Assembly (NCBI GenBank): GCA_009841145.1 | Contig: VXMJ01000057.1 | Coordinates: 62,001-126,000, forward strand | Length of the DNA: 64,000 bases | Direction of reading: 5' to 3' | From: Caldilineaceae bacterium SB0661_bin_34 | GTDB lineage: Bacteria; Chloroflexota; Anaerolineae; Caldilineales; Caldilineaceae | Shown: positions 19,545-29,602 of the stretch, in pieces | How positions within the stretch are numbered: position 1 is the stretch's first letter | Layout of the letters: the number at the start of each line of letters is the position of its first letter | Notes under the pieces: model-generated | Database searches by the model: none | What the model was told of the DNA's origin: nothing | The model's input: only the letters and a program-made list of their open reading frames with translations | Translations under genes and position numbers: made by a program

Positions 19545-21011
19545 ATGACGCCTCTCAATGCCTGTGAAATCCATCTGACGCTCCGCCCCGAGCAGTCCCG
19601 GGTTCTGGACCGGTTCCTGGAGGCATGGGGGCCTCCGGTTTGGATTGTGGGTGGCATGGTCCGCGACCGCCTCCTCGGAATTGCGCCCGGGCACGACCTT
19701 GACTTGGCCGTACCGCGATCGAGCCCATTGGAGAACCAACGCTGGATCCCCGACGGCTGGCACATCTTTTGCCTGGATCCCCGCAGGCAGATCTGGCGAT
19801 TGGCATCACGCCCGCCATCCGAGCAGGAGCCGGTTGGAACAATCGATTTGGTCGTCTTGGGAGGCGGCTGCATTGAAACCGATCTTGGACAGCGCGACTT
19901 TCGTGTGAATGCCATGGCGGTCCAGGTCAAGTCGGTTGTCGGCACGCATGTAACCGGCACGCTGGTCGATCCCTTCGGGGGACGGGTTGATCTTGCCCAA
20001 CGCACGGTAGTCCCCGTTTCCGAACGCAACCTGTTGTCCGATCCCTTGCGCATGCTCAGAGGCGTCCGGCTATCCCACGACCTCGGGCTGAAGCTGTCGG
20101 CGGAATTGCGGTTGTTCATAGGGCAACATGGCCACCTCGCTGGACAGGCTGCGCGAGAACGGATAGGGCCGGAAGTGTGGAAGCTGGTAACCAGTTCCGC
20201 CTCGTCCATTCGTGATGTCGCACACGACCTGAACGAGCTGAACCTCTGGCCACTGGTTGCCGACAGGGAAGGCGGAACGTTCATCCTGTCCGAGAACGAT
20301 GTGCGCTGGCTTTCTCGTTTGCAGGCGTGGACAAGATCAACGAAATCGGACCGGAGCCAGGGCGAACGGAACCCGAATCCTATGGAACCGGACATCGATG
20401 CGGTGATCGACCTTCAGCAGATGGCTCGCGGGTATCTGGGTCCAGGGCGCCTGCGCGGTGACTGGTGGGTCTTGGCCGCCCTCCTTTGGCTGATCCTCCC
20501 GGACACGACTGCGGCCAGTCCAGGTGCCGGCATGAAGCGCTGGGGTAGACGATGCGCCTTTGCCACTACGGAGCAGCGGTGGCTGGGTTCTGTCGGCGCG
20601 GCCCTCGACCATGTGTGGAGACGGTGGGTACATCCGCCCAATCATCGCCATGCCCGGGAGCCGACGGTGATTGAGTGCCACCGTTTGATGGAGAAGACCG
20701 GCTGGCACCTTGGCCTGCCTGCGTTGCAGGATGCATGCGCAATCGCAGCGCCGTTGGCCAGGGCAATCGGAGCCGGGGCGCACTCCCGCCTGACGGCAAT
20801 CCAGCATGCCGTCAATCATCTGTGGGGACTTGGTCAATTTGGACCAGTGCGGCCGCTGGCAACGGGGCGGGATCTCCTGACCTGGTATGCCCTGGCGCCG
20901 GGCCCGAAAGTCGGACGATTGCTGACCCTCCTCGTCGAGGCCCAGGTGATGGGCCGCGTCACCTCGCCCACCGAAGCGCGGGAGTTCCTTGATGGTTTGC
21001 TGTACCATTGA
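19545..21011 (+). CDS. CCA tRNA nucleotidyltransferase / poly(A) polymerase family protein
   Basis: Class II nucleotidyltransferase features are present in the N-terminal half: WIVGGMVRDRLLG (G36-G37...R40-D41), the metal-binding HDLDLAV (D51, D53), QRDFRVNAMAV, and SDPLRMLRGVRL for tRNA and nucleotide recognition. The C-terminal half is helical and divergent. The family adds CCA or A residues to RNA 3' ends. The tRNA-Gly in this window lacks an encoded CCA, so an active enzyme is needed in the cell. The start could also be GTG at 19509. Confidence 0.83.
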   Translation: MTPLNACEIHLTLRPEQSRVLDRFLEAWGPPVWIVGGMVRDRLLGIAPGHDLDLAVPRSSPLENQRWIPDGWHIFCLDPRRQIWRLASRPPSEQEPVGTIDLVVLGGGCIETDLGQRDFRVNAMAVQVKSVVGTHVTGTLVDPFGGRVDLAQRTVVPVSERNLLSDPLRMLRGVRLSHDLGLKLSAELRLFIGQHGHLAGQAARERIGPEVWKLVTSSASSIRDVAHDLNELNLWPLVADREGGTFILSENDVRWLSRLQAWTRSTKSDRSQGERNPNPMEPDIDAVIDLQQMARGYLGPGRLRGDWWVLAALLWLILPDTTAASPGAGMKRWGRRCAFATTEQRWLGSVGAALDHVWRRWVHPPNHRHAREPTVIECHRLMEKTGWHLGLPALQDACAIAAPLARAIGAGAHSRLTAIQHAVNHLWGLGQFGPVRPLATGRDLLTWYALAPGPKVGRLLTLLVEAQVMGRVTSPTEAREFLDGLLYH

Positions 21012-21086
21012 AGTGCAACCGATCCTGTCCAAGGACCAGACACCTCCCGACCGCAACGTCGGACCTGCAATGGCACAAGCTAGTTC

Positions 21087-22424
21087 ATGGGACTGATCGC
21101 GATCCTGGGTTCGATTGTCGCGATTGTCCTGTTGATTGCCTTTTGCGTCGCAGCTGAAATCTCCCTGGCAGGTTCGCGGCGTTCCCGAATCCAACAGCTG
21201 CAGGATGACGGCAATGTCCTCGCCGACAAGGTGGGCGGCATCATTCACAATCCCAGTCAGCTCAGCGCCTACATTTCGAGCTGCCAAATCAGCATCACGA
21301 TTTGCACTGTCTTGCTGGGGTTTGTGGGGCAAGCCGGCGTCGCGCCCCGCATTGAGCCACTCCTGTTGCAACTCGGCCTGAATGCGGCCACCGCCACCTC
21401 GCTGGCGGTCGGATCGACACTCGTGGTCCTGTCGATAAGCGAGGTGTTCCTGGGCGAACTGGTACCCAAGAACCTGGGCATCCGCATCCCAGAGCGGCTG
21501 GCCATGGTCACCGTGACCTACCTGCGGGCCTACCATTTCCTGTTCAAGCCGTTCCTGTGGATCTTCAACCTGTTCAATCGCGCGATCCTGTTCCTAATCC
21601 GGGTCAAGGTTACGCACCAGCACGGCCTGGTGTTGACCGACCAGGAAATCCGGCGGATATCCAGGGAGAGTCAGGCACAGGGCCAGTTCGACTGGGACGA
21701 AGGTGGCGCCATCGACCGTACACTCAACATCGACAAGGAACCGGTCTTGGCCAAGATGGTGGTGCGGGAACACATTTTCGCGGCCCCCGAGTGGACAACG
21801 CCGGACCTGCAGCAGGATCTTCTGGCGAACTCCCCCTATTCCCGCATGCCGGTCTTTGATGGCTCCCTGGACAACCTGACCCGTACCGTCCACCTGCGAG
21901 ACCTCATGTGCAGTCCGGCTCCGCGACCGGACGACGATCCGGGACCCTTTCCCGCCTTCGCGGAGGATGTCAAGGTGGACGATGCTCTGGCGGACATGTT
22001 GCATAACAAGGTGCATCTGGCCGTGGTTCGGGATGATTTGGGCGCGACCGCCGGGATCATTACGTTGGAACAGCTGGTGGAAGCCGTCGTCGGGGATATA
22101 CACGACGAGTTCGACGAGGAGGAGCCGCCGCCCTTCCGGTTCGTTAACAACGACGTGCTGTTTATCGAAGCGTCGGTGGATGCAACATTGCTCGCGGCCG
22201 CGTTCGGGAGTGGGGACGGCAGCCTGGACACCGACGCACTCCCGCTTGAACCATCTCCGGATGCGCCGGCCCCCATGGAGGGCATCCCGCACCGGGGCCT
22301 TCGCCGGGCAGGCCCCGGTGCGGCCGACGGCTATTTTGTGAACGCCACCGAGGAGACGGTCAGGCTGGCACTGCAACTGCAGTCGGATCCCGCCGGCCCG
22401 GGTTTCGAACACGGAGCCCTGTGA
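21087..22424 (+). CDS. CNNM/CorC (hemolysin-related) membrane protein 1
   Basis: The 445 residues start with a DUF21/CNNM membrane domain (about 1-170; CQISITICTVLLGFVGQ and EVFLGELVPKNLGIR are its signature segments). A CBS-domain pair follows (about 195-335), ending in GIITLEQLVEAVVGDIHDEFDEE. The C-terminal CorC_HlyC domain is reduced and interrupted by a Pro/Ala-rich stretch. Members are linked to magnesium or sodium transport. The stop overlaps the next gene's ATG (TGATG), so the two similar proteins are probably made together. Confidence 0.87.
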   Translation: MGLIAILGSIVAIVLLIAFCVAAEISLAGSRRSRIQQLQDDGNVLADKVGGIIHNPSQLSAYISSCQISITICTVLLGFVGQAGVAPRIEPLLLQLGLNAATATSLAVGSTLVVLSISEVFLGELVPKNLGIRIPERLAMVTVTYLRAYHFLFKPFLWIFNLFNRAILFLIRVKVTHQHGLVLTDQEIRRISRESQAQGQFDWDEGGAIDRTLNIDKEPVLAKMVVREHIFAAPEWTTPDLQQDLLANSPYSRMPVFDGSLDNLTRTVHLRDLMCSPAPRPDDDPGPFPAFAEDVKVDDALADMLHNKVHLAVVRDDLGATAGIITLEQLVEAVVGDIHDEFDEEEPPPFRFVNNDVLFIEASVDATLLAAAFGSGDGSLDTDALPLEPSPDAPAPMEGIPHRGLRRAGPGAADGYFVNATEETVRLALQLQSDPAGPGFEHGAL

Positions 22425-23788
22425 TGGAAGCACTGGTTCCGATCGTGCTGATTGCCTTGTTCGTGGCGGCCAACGGTTTCTTCGTCGCGGCGGAATTTTC
22501 CGTGATGCTGGCCCCCTACCCACGCATCGAGAGCAGGGAGGAGGCTGGACACCGGCAGGCCGCCTACATCCTGACCATCCTGCGGGACAAGGAACGCCGC
22601 AACGACTTCATCGCCACGGCCCAGATAGGGATCACGTTGGCCAGTATGGGCCTGGGCATATATGCCGAGGAGCGCGTGGCGCACTGGTTGCATGAGGTTC
22701 TGCACCTGCCGTGGCTGTCGGAGCACGCAGCCACCACGGCCGCGCTGGTCATCGCCGTTGGCAGTCTGTCGTTCCTGCATGTCGTCGTGGGCGAAATGGT
22801 TCCGCAGACCATTGCCGTCCAGATGCCGGAATCGGTGGTGCTGGCGGTGGCCGGCACGATGCGGGTCTGCGAAATGCTTCTGAAACCCATGGCGCGCCAG
22901 CTGAATCGTGCAGCCGACTTTCTCATCACCAGATCACCCGTGCCCGTGGACCAGGACGACGGGCTAGCCTATTCCAAGGAGGAGATCCAGATCCTGATTG
23001 AGGAGAGCTACCACGCCGACCACATCGAGGAGGACGAGTTCGGCTACCTGGAACGGATTGGGAACTTCGACGACCGCACCGTCAACGAAGTGATGACTCC
23101 CCGCACGCGGGTTGTGGGCATCCAGGAGGATGCAACCTACGCGGATGTGATCGAGGTAATACGGGAAGCCGGCCAGTCCCGCTATCCCATCTACGGAAGC
23201 AACCTGGACGACATCAAGGGGATACTCCACTTCAAGCAGCTGGCGCGGCTGGACCGCAGCGCCGAGTTTCGTCTCGTCGATATCATCACCAGGGTGCCGG
23301 ACGGGGATCAGGACCAGGAGACAGGTGCCTTGGTGGTCCCAGGCTCCACACCGTTGCCCCAAATGCTGAAGCTGTTCCAGTCGCGGGGAGCCTACATGGC
23401 GGTGGTGCAGGACGAATTCCAAGGAACGGCGGGATTGGTGACCCTGGAAGACCTGATGGAGGAAATCTTCGGTGAAATCGAAGATGAATCAGACCTCGAG
23501 GCAAGCCGCGTTCGGGAGGCACCCCGGCTCGAGGTCCGGTCCCGGACCACCGTGGTGGCCCGGCTCGACGTTCCAGTGAACGAACTCCCCGAGGATTTCG
23601 CGGAAGCACTGGGAGAGACCAAAGGCGAGGCGGAAACCATAAGCGGGATGATCATGAACGCGATCGACAGAGTTCCGGAGAGGGGAGACGAAACCCGCCT
23701 GGGGAAGGTCTTCGTACGCGTGGAGGGCGAACCGCCGGACTTGCTGGCCTTGCTGAAGCTGTCACCATCCAAGCCCTCGGGCAACTGA
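22424..23788 (+). CDS. CNNM/CorC (hemolysin-related) membrane protein 2
   Basis: The 454-residue protein has a CNNM membrane domain (AANGFFVAAEFSVM at the start, ATAQIGITLASMGLG, VVGEMVPQTIAVQ). Two CBS domains (VMTPRTRVVGIQ... and GLVTLEDLMEEIFGEIEDE) and a complete C-terminal CorC_HlyC domain (LEVRSRTTVVARLDV, SGMIMNAI) follow. It is the better preserved partner of the gene before it. The pair may form a heteromeric ion-transport or sensing complex, which is inference from the overlap and shared fold. Confidence 0.9.
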   Translation: MEALVPIVLIALFVAANGFFVAAEFSVMLAPYPRIESREEAGHRQAAYILTILRDKERRNDFIATAQIGITLASMGLGIYAEERVAHWLHEVLHLPWLSEHAATTAALVIAVGSLSFLHVVVGEMVPQTIAVQMPESVVLAVAGTMRVCEMLLKPMARQLNRAADFLITRSPVPVDQDDGLAYSKEEIQILIEESYHADHIEEDEFGYLERIGNFDDRTVNEVMTPRTRVVGIQEDATYADVIEVIREAGQSRYPIYGSNLDDIKGILHFKQLARLDRSAEFRLVDIITRVPDGDQDQETGALVVPGSTPLPQMLKLFQSRGAYMAVVQDEFQGTAGLVTLEDLMEEIFGEIEDESDLEASRVREAPRLEVRSRTTVVARLDVPVNELPEDFAEALGETKGEAETISGMIMNAIDRVPERGDETRLGKVFVRVEGEPPDLLALLKLSPSKPSGN

Positions 23789-25326: not shown

Positions 25327-28300
25327 GTGCCGCACTCCGTCACCATGCCTCCCGTACCCAACGAACCACTGAATATCTACGGTCTGCACGACGCGGGCGG
25401 CGAGCATCTCTTCGAAGAGGCCGACGTACACGGCTGGGTGGTGTTCAACGAATTCATCGGCATGGACGACGCCGACCGTTCCGGTGTGGACTACAGTGCC
25501 TGGTCGGAACGCGGCTATGGCGTCATTGTCAAACTGCAATTGGGTTTCAATCCGGACGGCACGCTTCCGGCGGTCGACAACCACCTGAAATTCGCCCGGC
25601 GATGCGGCCGGTTCGTTAAGGTCTCCCGTGGCTGCAGTCACTGGGTGATTGGGAACGAGTTCAACAATTGGGTCGCGCGCCCTGGCGCCGACGCACGCGC
25701 CCGGATATCCCTGCTCAAGGACGTGAAGGACCCGGCACAGGTACAGGCCGTGCTGCGGGCCCTGCCCGAGCGCTTTGACGCACTCCATCCTGATGGGACC
25801 GCGACCAACCTGGCCACCGTCGGTGAAGCCATGCACCCGGATCGCTATGTCGCCTGTTTCAGGCAGTGCAGGGAGGCCATCCACCAAGCCGACCCGGATG
25901 CACTCGTCATTACGGGGGCCGTTACTCCATGGAACACCCACACCCGCTATGCGGGCAACGAGAGCGGTGACTGGATCACCTATTTCAGCGACATCCTGAA
26001 CCGGCTGGGACCCCAGGGTTGCGATGGCATTGCGCTGCATGCCTTCACGGTCACGGACGATCCCGCCGACGTTACCGCCGATGCTTGGATTCCCGAACGC
26101 TCGCCACGCCGCCGCAGCGGCTTCAGGGCCTACCGCGACTTTATGCGCGGAATTCCGTACCACATGCGCCAACTGCCCGTATACATTGTGGAGGCGGACC
26201 AATTCCAATCCTGGAGCCCACGGCAAAACGGATGGGTGCAGGCGGTCTACCGCGAAATCAACGGTTGGAACGAAGGTCCGGGGCACCAGCAAATCCGTTG
26301 TGCCGCCCTGTTCCGGTGGGCGGCCAGTCCCGGCGGCCGCTGGCAACTCTCCACATCCGCGGCTGTCTTGGCGGACACCGCCGCGGCCCTCAACCAGCAA
26401 TATGCATGGGATCCACAAAAGGCTCCCCTGCTCAACCCCGAACAGCCCGATGCCTCCGCCAGCCTGTCCCCCGGCAATGTAATTAGGACCATCGGCGACA
26501 TCAACCTGCGGGCCGTGCCCGGATTCGTGGGTTCGCCCCCGGACGCCATCGTGACGAAGCTTCCGTCGGGCCAGCAGTGCCTGATTGTCGACGGACCCGA
26601 ACAGGTGGACCGGCTGATTTGGTGGCGCGTCACGGTCACGGTGTCCGACCGCACCCAGGTTGACGGCTGGCTGGCACAAGCCGGCGTGGATGCGCAGCCG
26701 TTCATCGCCAGGGTATCCGGCGCCCCGGACTTGGCGGCCCCGTTCGATCCGGTGCCAATCCCGGACACGGACGCCATGGCACCAGGTACCTACTTCCTTG
26801 TCCAGCGACCCACCGAACTGCGGCGCACGCCAGGCACCCGGGCCAAGGAGGCGGACGACCTGTTGGGCACCGTCCCCACAGGGACTCCGGGTCTCGTGCA
26901 GGAAGGCCCCTTGTACGTAGAGGACAGTATCTGGTGGCGCGTGCGCGCGGCCTGGCCGGAAGGCAGCGACTCGACAGGGTGGCTTCGAGAGGAAACCGAC
27001 CGCAACAAGCGCAACCTGCAGGTCATCGCCGTGCCCGGAACCCCGGCCATCCCCGAACCCAGGTTTGCCGTTGGCGACACCGTTTGGGTATGGCGCAATG
27101 CCCTCCTGCGCCGTTTGCCCGGGACCTCCAACCAGGCAATCGACGACATCGTCATGCAACTGGCTCCCGGCATGTCGTTGACCGTGGAAAGCGGCCCGCG
27201 CATGGAAGACAGACTGGTGTGGTGGCAGGTGGTCACTCATCCGGCGGTTGAGCCCGTGCTGCGCGGATGGGTCTCGGACATGACGTCGACCGGCTACGAC
27301 CTCCTTCAGGACACTGCCCCGAACCTACCCGGTCGGGACAGGCAAGCGCTCCAGCCTGGCGACAGCATCTGGGTGATTGCCGCAAGCCCGATGCGACGCA
27401 CCCCGGGGCTGGACGGGGATGCGGGCTACGATGTACTTGGTGAAGTGTCCCGCAACACGTTGTGTACGGTCCTGGGCCATCCACAGGGGGTGGGCGGAAT
27501 CGCTTGGTGGCTGCTGGCAGTGGCCACGGATGAACAGGACCGGATGTGGGGATGGGTGGCCCAGAGTGCACCTGACGGCACGCCGCAGATGGGAACCAAT
27601 CCGCTGCCCGAGGTCAGTCCTCCCGTCCCGCGCCGTGCGCCCAGCGCCCGGGAACGTCGGACCTTCGCCAACGGTGACCGCGTCATGAACATCCAATCGG
27701 ACGTCCTGCGGATGCGCAGGACTCCCGGCCAGGTCGGCAAGCCGGATTCGGACATCATCGGACGTGCGCCGTCCCGCAGCACCCTGCTCGTCAATGGCGG
27801 GCCGGAAATCAGGGACAATCTCCGCTGGTGGTGGACGGACATGGTTATCCCGCCTTCGAACCAGCCGTCGGGCTGGGTTGCCGAAGGTTCGCAGAGCGGA
27901 CTGCGCCTGCTGGCTTACGACTTCCTGGCCGACCACATCGACATCGCCACTCCGTTTCCGGGCCGTTTCCCGATGTCCCAGGGCTGGGGCACCAACCCGC
28001 AGTTCTACAGTCGATTTACCTACGGCGGGGTCCCCATGCGGGGCCACAACGGCCTTGACTTCGCCTTGCCGGTAGGCACACCGTTGCTGGCGACCGATGC
28101 CGGCAAGATCACCCGAACCGATTTCGGTGTGGGCGGTTTCGGCAAGTTCGTTCTCATGGAACATGACTGGGGGGAATCGGTGTACGCGCACATGAGCGAG
28201 TTCTCGGTCAGTGTCGGGCAGACCGTCGGGCGTGGCGCCACCCTGGGACTTTCGGGCAACACGGGTGCCAGTACGGGACCCCACCTACACTTTGGCATAC

Positions 28301-28446
28301 GGATTCTGCCGTATCGCAGACCCGATGGCTGGGGCGGGTTCTGCAACCCGGCCCAATTCATGTCGCAGGACATTTTCCGCAATCGTCCGGTGGCCATGGA
28401 GCCGTCCCCGCCCGGCGTGGAGAGCGACTCCAACATCCTTCCCTGA
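25327..28446 (+). CDS. Glycosidase-like barrel + five SH3-like repeats + M23 peptidase
   Basis: The 1039-residue protein is built of three parts. Residues 15-360 look like a clan-A glycoside hydrolase barrel, with a putative acid/base in WVIGNEF (E111) and nucleophile in VYIVEAD (E289). Residues 380-880 hold five bacterial SH3-like repeats starting near 384, 487, 583, 679 and 784, each with an LR-x-xPG motif, a WW(R) core and a closing GW. Residues 890-1010 are an M23/LytM domain with zinc ligands H907, D911 (HNGLD) and H988 (HLH), so it should cut peptidoglycan cross-bridges. No signal peptide or membrane segment is seen. A PP2C gene follows 14 bases downstream. Confidence 0.85.
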   Translation: MPHSVTMPPVPNEPLNIYGLHDAGGEHLFEEADVHGWVVFNEFIGMDDADRSGVDYSAWSERGYGVIVKLQLGFNPDGTLPAVDNHLKFARRCGRFVKVSRGCSHWVIGNEFNNWVARPGADARARISLLKDVKDPAQVQAVLRALPERFDALHPDGTATNLATVGEAMHPDRYVACFRQCREAIHQADPDALVITGAVTPWNTHTRYAGNESGDWITYFSDILNRLGPQGCDGIALHAFTVTDDPADVTADAWIPERSPRRRSGFRAYRDFMRGIPYHMRQLPVYIVEADQFQSWSPRQNGWVQAVYREINGWNEGPGHQQIRCAALFRWAASPGGRWQLSTSAAVLADTAAALNQQYAWDPQKAPLLNPEQPDASASLSPGNVIRTIGDINLRAVPGFVGSPPDAIVTKLPSGQQCLIVDGPEQVDRLIWWRVTVTVSDRTQVDGWLAQAGVDAQPFIARVSGAPDLAAPFDPVPIPDTDAMAPGTYFLVQRPTELRRTPGTRAKEADDLLGTVPTGTPGLVQEGPLYVEDSIWWRVRAAWPEGSDSTGWLREETDRNKRNLQVIAVPGTPAIPEPRFAVGDTVWVWRNALLRRLPGTSNQAIDDIVMQLAPGMSLTVESGPRMEDRLVWWQVVTHPAVEPVLRGWVSDMTSTGYDLLQDTAPNLPGRDRQALQPGDSIWVIAASPMRRTPGLDGDAGYDVLGEVSRNTLCTVLGHPQGVGGIAWWLLAVATDEQDRMWGWVAQSAPDGTPQMGTNPLPEVSPPVPRRAPSARERRTFANGDRVMNIQSDVLRMRRTPGQVGKPDSDIIGRAPSRSTLLVNGGPEIRDNLRWWWTDMVIPPSNQPSGWVAEGSQSGLRLLAYDFLADHIDIATPFPGRFPMSQGWGTNPQFYSRFTYGGVPMRGHNGLDFALPVGTPLLATDAGKITRTDFGVGGFGKFVLMEHDWGESVYAHMSEFSVSVGQTVGRGATLGLSGNTGASTGPHLHFGIRILPYRRPDGWGGFCNPAQFMSQDIFRNRPVAMEPSPPGVESDSNILP

Positions 28447-28460
28447 ATCGATACTCCGCT

Positions 28461-29180
28461 GTGGCCCCAGCTCCCGTCGTCCAGCTAGCAGTCTCCAAAA
28501 TCCCGAAGTACGCCACGCGCGAAAGCGGGGACACGGTCGAGGTGGTCGAAAGGCCGCACGGCGGTTTGAGCGCGGTCTTGGCCGACGGCCAGCGCAGCGG
28601 ACGCAGTGCAAAGAACATTAGCAACCTCGTGGTGCGCAAGGCCATCTCCCTGTTGGCCGAAGGCGTGCGCGACGGAGCCACGGCGCGGGCGGCACACGAC
28701 TACCTTCGCACGTATCGACGGGGCCAGGTGAGTGCCGAATTGCAAATCGTCAGCATCGACATGGACTCCTGGACGCTTGTCGTCTCCCGCAACTGCCACT
28801 GCCCAGCTTGGTTCCGGACTACCCACAGTCAGGGTCTGCTGCAGGCACACAGTCAGGCCATTGGCATACACCGCAATACGCGGCCCGACATCACCGAGCT
28901 GCCGATCGAGGCCGGCAGCATGGTGGTGGCGGCCTCGGACGGGGTGTGGGAAGCCGGCCGCCATCCGCAGGACCGCATGAATCTGCCGGCCTTGGTCTGT
29001 GAAGCGGATCCTGACGGCAGACTGCCGGCGGACCGTCTCGCCCAACTGCTGCTCGACACCGCCCTGATCCTTGAGGAAGGCCGAGCCCGGGACGACCTGA
29101 CGGTGCTGGTCGTGAAGGTCCTGGGCCGTAGCGAACGAGACGACGCGCGGCATATGACAGTCAGTTTTCCCTTGGGATAG
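28461..29180 (+). CDS. PP2C/SpoIIE-type serine/threonine phosphatase
   Basis: The 239-residue protein keeps the metal-binding aspartates of PP2C-like phosphatases: ESGD (near residue 22), VLADGQRSG, VAASDGVWEAG and RARDDLTVLVV. It has a single domain with no sensor or membrane segment. The GTG start at 28461 lies 14 bases after the M23 gene, so they are probably one transcript. It would reverse phosphorylation set by a kinase encoded elsewhere. The family includes anti-anti-sigma phosphatases; no sigma-regulator gene is in view. Confidence 0.8.
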   Translation: MAPAPVVQLAVSKIPKYATRESGDTVEVVERPHGGLSAVLADGQRSGRSAKNISNLVVRKAISLLAEGVRDGATARAAHDYLRTYRRGQVSAELQIVSIDMDSWTLVVSRNCHCPAWFRTTHSQGLLQAHSQAIGIHRNTRPDITELPIEAGSMVVAASDGVWEAGRHPQDRMNLPALVCEADPDGRLPADRLAQLLLDTALILEEGRARDDLTVLVVKVLGRSERDDARHMTVSFPLG

Positions 29181-29218
29181 GAACCGATCCGGCTGGGGGC
29201 CGGAAGACTGGAGTTGGG

Positions 29219-29602
29219 ATGCAGCATCCGCTCATCAAGGTTGTAGGGGTCAGCGCGGCCGGGAAGTCCACCTTGGTAGCGACCCTGGAGCAGTTGGGCA
29301 TGCGTGCCCGATGCACCGGCCAGGAACACAGTTATGTCAAGGATATGTGGCGAAGACTGCATCCTCCCGACATTCTGATATACCTGCATGCGGACCTAGG
29401 AACCCAGTTGTCCAGACGCCCGTGGGGGCGGTATACGGAGGCCGGCCACCGGGAGGAGTTGGCGAGGTTGGCCCATGCCCTAGCGCATGCGGACCTTGTC
29501 ATAGAAACCTCGCCGATGACAAAACAGGAAGTGGTCCAGACAGTTCGACGGTTTTTGGATGATCGGCATACCTCCAACATCCGGTGCGCTTCCCAAGGCT
29601 GA
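29219..29602 (+). CDS. Small P-loop kinase-like protein
   Basis: The 127 residues begin with a Walker A loop, VGVSAAGKSTL, followed by QEHSYVKDMW, PDILIYLHADLGTQLSRR and HADLVIETS. This order resembles small nucleoside/shikimate-kinase-like P-loop proteins of unknown substrate. A lid arginine pair is visible (SRRPW). It follows the PP2C gene by 38 bases and may belong to the same unit. Function not known. Confidence 0.65.
   Translation: MQHPLIKVVGVSAAGKSTLVATLEQLGMRARCTGQEHSYVKDMWRRLHPPDILIYLHADLGTQLSRRPWGRYTEAGHREELARLAHALAHADLVIETSPMTKQEVVQTVRRFLDDRHTSNIRCASQG

Follow-up and report, generated by a model that had tools for sequence, protein, structure and literature searches.

The protein described here is encoded in a 64,000-nucleotide stretch of DNA (the window) from Caldilineaceae bacterium SB0661_bin_34, namely bases 62001-126000 of contig 13 in a draft genome of 4.34 Mb that is 98% complete. 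It combines a glycosidase-like barrel, five SH3-like repeats, and an M23 peptidase domain, and it has no leader. From sequence comparisons and structural models, we propose that it is probably a cytosolic, endolysin-type lysin that is encoded by the chromosome, and that the two genes that follow it, for a PP2C phosphatase and a small P-loop protein, are an independent pair that may be coexpressed with the lysin or control it. A preliminary description of this DNA had suggested wall remodeling, lysis, or an export-dependent weapon. Of these, lysis is the best fit, given that phages have the barrel in endolysin-like proteins, while the weapon loses ground because no sheath gene was found in four genomes of the genus.

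Domains of the proposed lysin

The lysin gene (25327..28446, on the + strand, as are all of its features) encodes 1039 amino acids if translation begins at a GTG. An in-frame ATG at 25345 would yield 1033 amino acids and matches the start that is used by relatives.

The fold of the barrel (25363..26433) was assigned from a structural model because sequence libraries gave no match to it. No Pfam family matched above threshold, Glyco_hydro_39 did not match at E values of up to 1, and a profile of the barrel had only chance matches to the sequences in PDB. (Glyco_hydro_39 does have a weak match, at 2.6e-4, in 2 of 18 viral relatives, and the window's barrel is not a member of GH39 by sequence.) The model was computed with AlphaFold2 from an alignment of the window's barrel with 47 relatives, of which 46 are from viral contigs, and it is an eight-stranded TIM barrel (pLDDT 87.5, pTM 0.86). 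When it was compared to PDB structures with Foldseek and VIA-align, the nearest structures belonged to GH39 and clan GH-A, and the top matches (Z of 20-22.8) included GH39 enzymes and PslG. The identity to these enzymes is only about 10-14%, and the window's barrel differs from them in being fused to peptidoglycan hydrolases, but the (beta/alpha)8 fold is the same.

The predicted structure also has the glutamates that are expected at strands 4 and 7 in clan GH-A. The putative acid/base, E111 (25657-25659), is in the GNE motif just after strand 4, and the putative nucleophile, E289 (26191-26193), is in the VYIVE motif of strand 7. (In the numbering of the model, E105 comes just after the strand at 99-102 and E283 lies within the strand at 279-285.) Neither varies among 40 chromosomal barrels or among the 48 barrels from the window and the viral contigs. 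In all 48, the invariant residues make up the clan GH-A pattern: Asn and Glu in GNE, His in LHxY/F, the strand-7 Glu, one Trp, and an Arg that precedes the strand-8 Trp. As modeled, then, the window's barrel folds as a clan GH-A glycosidase with both catalytic glutamates in place, and a lack of the predicted Glu pair, which would have counted against the preliminary description, was not seen. Because this pattern is invariant in the 48 barrels and both glutamates are so in the chromosomal ones, it is likely that the barrel is an active enzyme.

The five SH3-like repeats span residues 395-851 and have about 55 residues each: 26509..26673 (residues 395-449), 26821..26985 (499-553), 27109..27273 (595-649), 27394..27558 (690-744), and 27709..27879 (795-851). 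Every pair of them aligns with a score of 8-11 standard deviations above shuffled sequences, and a similar repeat in a viral protein (L185) weakly matches SH3_3 in Pfam. In an AlphaFold2 model of the SH3-M23 part, the pLDDT was about 20-50 for the SH3-like repeats, for which the alignment was shallow, and about 60-90 for M23.

The M23 domain (28042..28305, residues 906-993) matches PF01551 with E = 9.5e-24 and a score of 83.9 bits, as compared to a curated cut-off of 28.7. It has the HxxxD and HxH metal ligands, and the five key residues (H907, D911, H955, H986, and H988) do not vary among 22 relatives. We infer that it cuts the peptides of peptidoglycan, and the source genome does make peptidoglycan, as it encodes a MurA that scores above its curated cut-off. 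MepM, ShyA, and lysostaphin are exported enzymes. The window's domain resembles these M23 enzymes in that all of the metal and catalytic residues are present and it has M23 matches in PDB, but the window's protein is leaderless and also contains a second domain that is predicted to be catalytic.

We found no signal peptide or transmembrane segment in the lysin (the maximum hydropathy over 19 residues is 1.17). In 52 of 57 complete barrel proteins from chromosomes, the start is no more than 20 residues away from the barrel; in the remaining five, no hydrophobic leader is seen. Thus, the absence of a leader is a trait of the family and not the result of a missed start codon. The preliminary description was therefore correct about the repeats, the zinc ligands, the missing signal peptide, and the presence of two putative wall-cutting domains in one protein.

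Relatives of the barrel in phages and on chromosomes

Successive searches of IMG/VR found the barrel in 13 and then 50 loci. (Some of these viral contigs may be fragments of host genomes; the solid ones are those with terminase, portal, or holin genes, which do neighbor barrel genes.) In L223 a holin is directly upstream of the lysin, and in L188 it is one gene further away. When 18 viral barrel proteins were compared to Pfam, M23 was present in 4, N-acetylmuramidase in 3, GH108 in 3, SLT in 1, and SH3_3 in 5, and viral barrel proteins match endolysin families in PHROGs. The closest relatives of the window's lysin by architecture are on contigs of uncultured phages, where the barrel is also leaderless. 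In a tree of the barrels, viral and chromosomal copies are interleaved, which suggests repeated exchange between phages and chromosomes, with many of the branches being weak. (This tree places the window's genus on a long branch whose position is uncertain, so a tree of the SH3-M23 part was used to analyze linkage, as discussed below.)

Phage endolysins are commonly leaderless. Like the modular endolysins in PHROG families, the window's lysin joins SH3-like repeats to a predicted catalytic domain without a leader; in the phage relatives this domain is M23, GH108, or a muramidase. It differs in having the clan GH-A barrel as well, which we did not find in 50,697 phage records by tblastn with the window's barrel and one viral barrel. 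Also, the window's copy is on a chromosome and lacks a holin, whereas some phage relatives have an adjacent holin. The analysis points to a putative glycosidase domain, outside the copy of Pfam that we used, as a mark of lysins of both Anaerolineae-class bacteria and uncultured phages.

Further fusions and neighbors were noted among the viral barrel genes. One protein (L223:5986-8301) has three catalytic domains in one chain: the barrel, M23, and an SLT-type transglycosylase. Another (L179:4890-6416) joins the barrel to a Dam-type DNA adenine methyltransferase, which is odd for a lysin and possibly reflects another role or a gene fusion. Genes for phosphoadenosine phosphosulfate reductase are also found near barrel genes on viral contigs.

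Chromosomal barrel proteins are found across the window's whole family. In a sample of 251 genomes from across the phylum, only a handful had strong matches to the barrel profile, all of them within the class. The chromosomal proteins combine the barrel with SH3 and M23, with up to three Amidase_2 domains, with GH25, or with F5/8 and Ig-like domains. The Amidase_2 form usually has a CysQ-like gene on one side and scpA on the other. The source genome has this form too, as another leaderless protein of 1245 amino acids in which one Amidase_2 domain is recognized (G000 contig 95, L126:7548-11285); it adjoins scpA and the CysQ-like gene, and this arrangement recurs across the family. In one genus, the linked lysin is followed downstream by a gene for yet another leaderless protein, of about 440 amino acids (L072:11055-12380, with equivalents in L070, L073, L074, L110, and L120); from reading its sequence this protein resembles a GH-A barrel, and it has no match in Pfam.

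The phosphatase/P-loop pair and its link to the putative lysin

The lysin gene is followed after 14 bases by the phosphatase gene (28461..29180, 239 amino acids), and 38 bases separate this from the gene for the P-loop protein (29219..29602, 127 amino acids). All three are on the + strand, with the spacing that had been claimed. The phosphatase was correctly recognized as PP2C-type: it matches SpoIIE in Pfam (PF07228, E = 8.3e-17, 62.2 bits vs. a cut-off of 25), and its metal-site aspartates (D42, D160, D211, and D212) are invariant in an alignment of 35 relatives. The solved structure 3pu9 is a close relative (E = 5e-80 by profile). It shares its domain and metal aspartates with 3pu9 and SpoIIE, but the window's subfamily has a single domain and is tied to a small P-loop protein, and we recognized no STAS or anti-sigma partner beside it. 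The P-loop protein has a Walker A motif (GVSAAGKST) and a family-specific QEHS...W motif. It had been described as kinase-like; its matches to RapZ-like_N, AAA_16, and AAA_33 are all below the cut-off, although matches to these families recur in many members of the P-loop family.

In the sample of 251 genomes, the PP2C family was present in 59 and the P-loop family (counted by strong matches) in 39, all of which were among the 59 (P = 3e-31, hypergeometric test, ignoring the kinship of the genomes). In all 35 genomes with both genes on one contig, they were within 1.2 kb of each other, and 24 of these pairs were within 200 bases. The other neighbors vary by lineage and include SecD/SecF-like genes, a channel-like gene, the CCA-adding enzyme, and CNNM. 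Judging from gene content and order, the PP2C and P-loop genes are a real two-gene module that is found across the phylum and is wider than the trio. The module is probably a switch that acts by reversible phosphorylation or depends on nucleotides. We also looked for both genes on the viral contigs and did not find them, so the pair is not part of a phage cassette. In some lineages, a membrane protein of about 350-370 amino acids, possibly a channel, is encoded between the two genes (L096:7584-8630, L103:6619-7728).

The preliminary description had proposed that the trio be checked for co-occurrence in other genomes, and the outcome was mixed. (Gene calls at the loci of relatives were made by codon usage, as the DNA is GC-rich, and the locus in G034 is broken by contig ends.) The trio is linked in all four genomes of the genus, with the lysin first and then the pair; the lysins of the three genus-mates are 93-95% identical to the window's. 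It is also found in seven genomes of three other genera (G004, G009, G021, G025, G028, G032, and G018), where the order is PP2C, P-loop, lysin. G018 has only the SH3-M23 part of the lysin and its P-loop gene is inverted; at the locus L075, the P-loop gene is on the opposite strand. On the other hand, the pair occurs across the phylum, mostly without the lysin, and the lysin lies away from the pair in at least nine genomes, which represent seven further genera (G005, G024, G027, G007, G010, G013, G015, G016, and G017). In one more genus, eight genomes keep the pair, and we saw no gene for a barrel-SH3-M23 protein. Since several genera have the trio, in different orders, it is more than a chance feature of a single genome. 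In the SH3-M23 tree, two groups are separated with support of 100/100 and the linked lysins are all in one of them; an AU test did not reject a single origin for the linked lysins (P = 0.319). The linkage is thus a family-level arrangement that has outlasted one or more changes in gene order, and it suggests a possible functional tie.

Possible role of the lysin

We propose that the SH3 repeats would anchor the lysin to the wall and that M23 would cleave the peptides of peptidoglycan. The barrel would cleave either the glycan of peptidoglycan or a second glycan in the unusual, multilayered envelope of Caldilineae, so that both layers would fail together. A second glycan would fit because an isolate of Caldilineae has, besides its peptidoglycan layer, further inner and outer layers of unidentified nature (PMC13319060). 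By its predicted domain content, the protein is a leaderless wall-lytic protein with a wall-binding domain, as endolysins are. With no export signal, it would most likely be a lysin that is stored or depends on release, and it would act once the membrane was breached, either in self-lysis or after release from lysed neighbors. The gene seems to have settled beside the PP2C/P-loop pair in part of the Caldilineaceae, where the pair may be coexpressed with the lysin or control it. Such control is suggested by gene order, and by extension lysis may be under phospho-control. Several observations weigh against this proposal. The lysin gene sits among housekeeping genes, between a sugar symporter and PP2C; a scan of its neighbors found no holin, as a phage lysis cassette would have; and in most genera the lysin and PP2C are not linked. 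Also, if there were an unrecognized route of non-classical secretion, the lysin would be an ordinary autolysin.

Such an autolysin would remodel the walls of living, growing cells. It would be consistent with a chromosomal gene that has relatives throughout the family, and a maintained cellular function is suggested by the Amidase_2 form of the barrel protein, also leaderless, that this genome encodes next to scpA. But neither the window's protein nor the chromosomal relatives that we inspected has a signal peptide or transmembrane segment, and phages use the same architecture, so we consider this explanation unlikely. It is also possible that the barrel is a catalytically dead module that binds glycans, as searches of Pfam and of PDB sequences name no enzyme family for it. 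This is improbable, as phage and bacterial copies that have diverged strongly still keep the clan GH-A residues (N-E, His, Glu, and Arg/Trp) with little or no variation. We also considered an antibacterial effector of a contractile injection system, which could be a leaderless wall-cutting protein, and 17 of the 37 genomes that we searched do have Phage_sheath_1 genes. However, this family (PF04984, the only one searched for) had no match in the four draft genomes of the genus (G000-G003), and no immunity-like or secretion gene was recognized at the locus. We dropped this very improbable explanation for lack of a sheath-family gene in the genus.

The remaining alternatives concern the linkage. 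The chances seem about even that the linkage reflects shared chromosomal context and nothing more: the pair would serve an unrelated housekeeping target and the lysin would be its neighbor by descent. The CCA-adding enzyme and CNNM recur beside the pair in genera that lack the lysin at this locus, and as the AU test does not reject a single origin, one ancestral adjacency would be enough. Yet the genes have stayed close at about 40% protein identity, even though the window's genus has them in another order than the other genera. At the other extreme, the three genes could be one dedicated, phospho-regulated lysis operon, as might be expected from their common strand and small gaps, from the recurrence of the trio in all four genomes of the genus and (with the lysin after the pair) in three other genera, and from the placement of the linked lysins within one well-supported group. 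This is unlikely, as the pair is found phylum-wide without the lysin and amid quite different neighbors, many lysins lie elsewhere, and L075 has its P-loop gene on the other strand. Our proposal of a lysin beside an independent pair could also be extended: the barrel might found a new clan GH-A family that is dedicated to the extra layer of the Caldilineae envelope and swapped between these bacteria and their uncultured phages, and part of the Caldilineaceae might have put the lysin, as a domesticated endolysin, under a phosphatase/P-loop switch for programmed lysis. We view this extension as quite speculative and doubtful.

If the barrel's substrate is the unexplained inner or outer layer of Caldilineae filaments, then the enzyme could be used to find out what that layer is made of, and the domain would be a lead for linking phages to poorly cultured hosts. 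The lysin of explosive cell lysis in Pseudomonas may be a useful comparison. That gene reportedly lies in a phage-derived cluster, while the window's locus is not prophage-like. As we propose for the window's lysin, a phage-type lysin that is encoded in a bacterial genome breaks its own cell (PMC4834629).

M23, SH3 domains, the modularity of endolysins, and SpoIIE-type PP2C are already known. As far as our searches go, what is new is that the barrel is a lysin module common to Anaerolineae-class chromosomes and uncultured phages, that it is fused to six kinds of wall-cutting domain, and that PP2C and the P-loop protein are coupled across the phylum. We found no description of this combination, or of the phosphatase/P-loop pair by itself, in the literature that we searched (subscription papers were mostly outside the reach of this search).

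No phage genes were recognized among the proteins that we scanned on either side of the trio. On the upstream side are two CNNM genes, a sugar:cation symporter, and a CCA-adding-type nucleotidyltransferase that was assigned by inspection of its sequence, and downstream is a gene for pyruvate:ferredoxin oxidoreductase. The CCA-adding-type enzyme and the two tandem CNNM genes (19545-23788) also flank the PP2C/P-loop pair in other genera, and at those loci a regulator of the XRE type (113 amino acids) is often encoded directly before PP2C.

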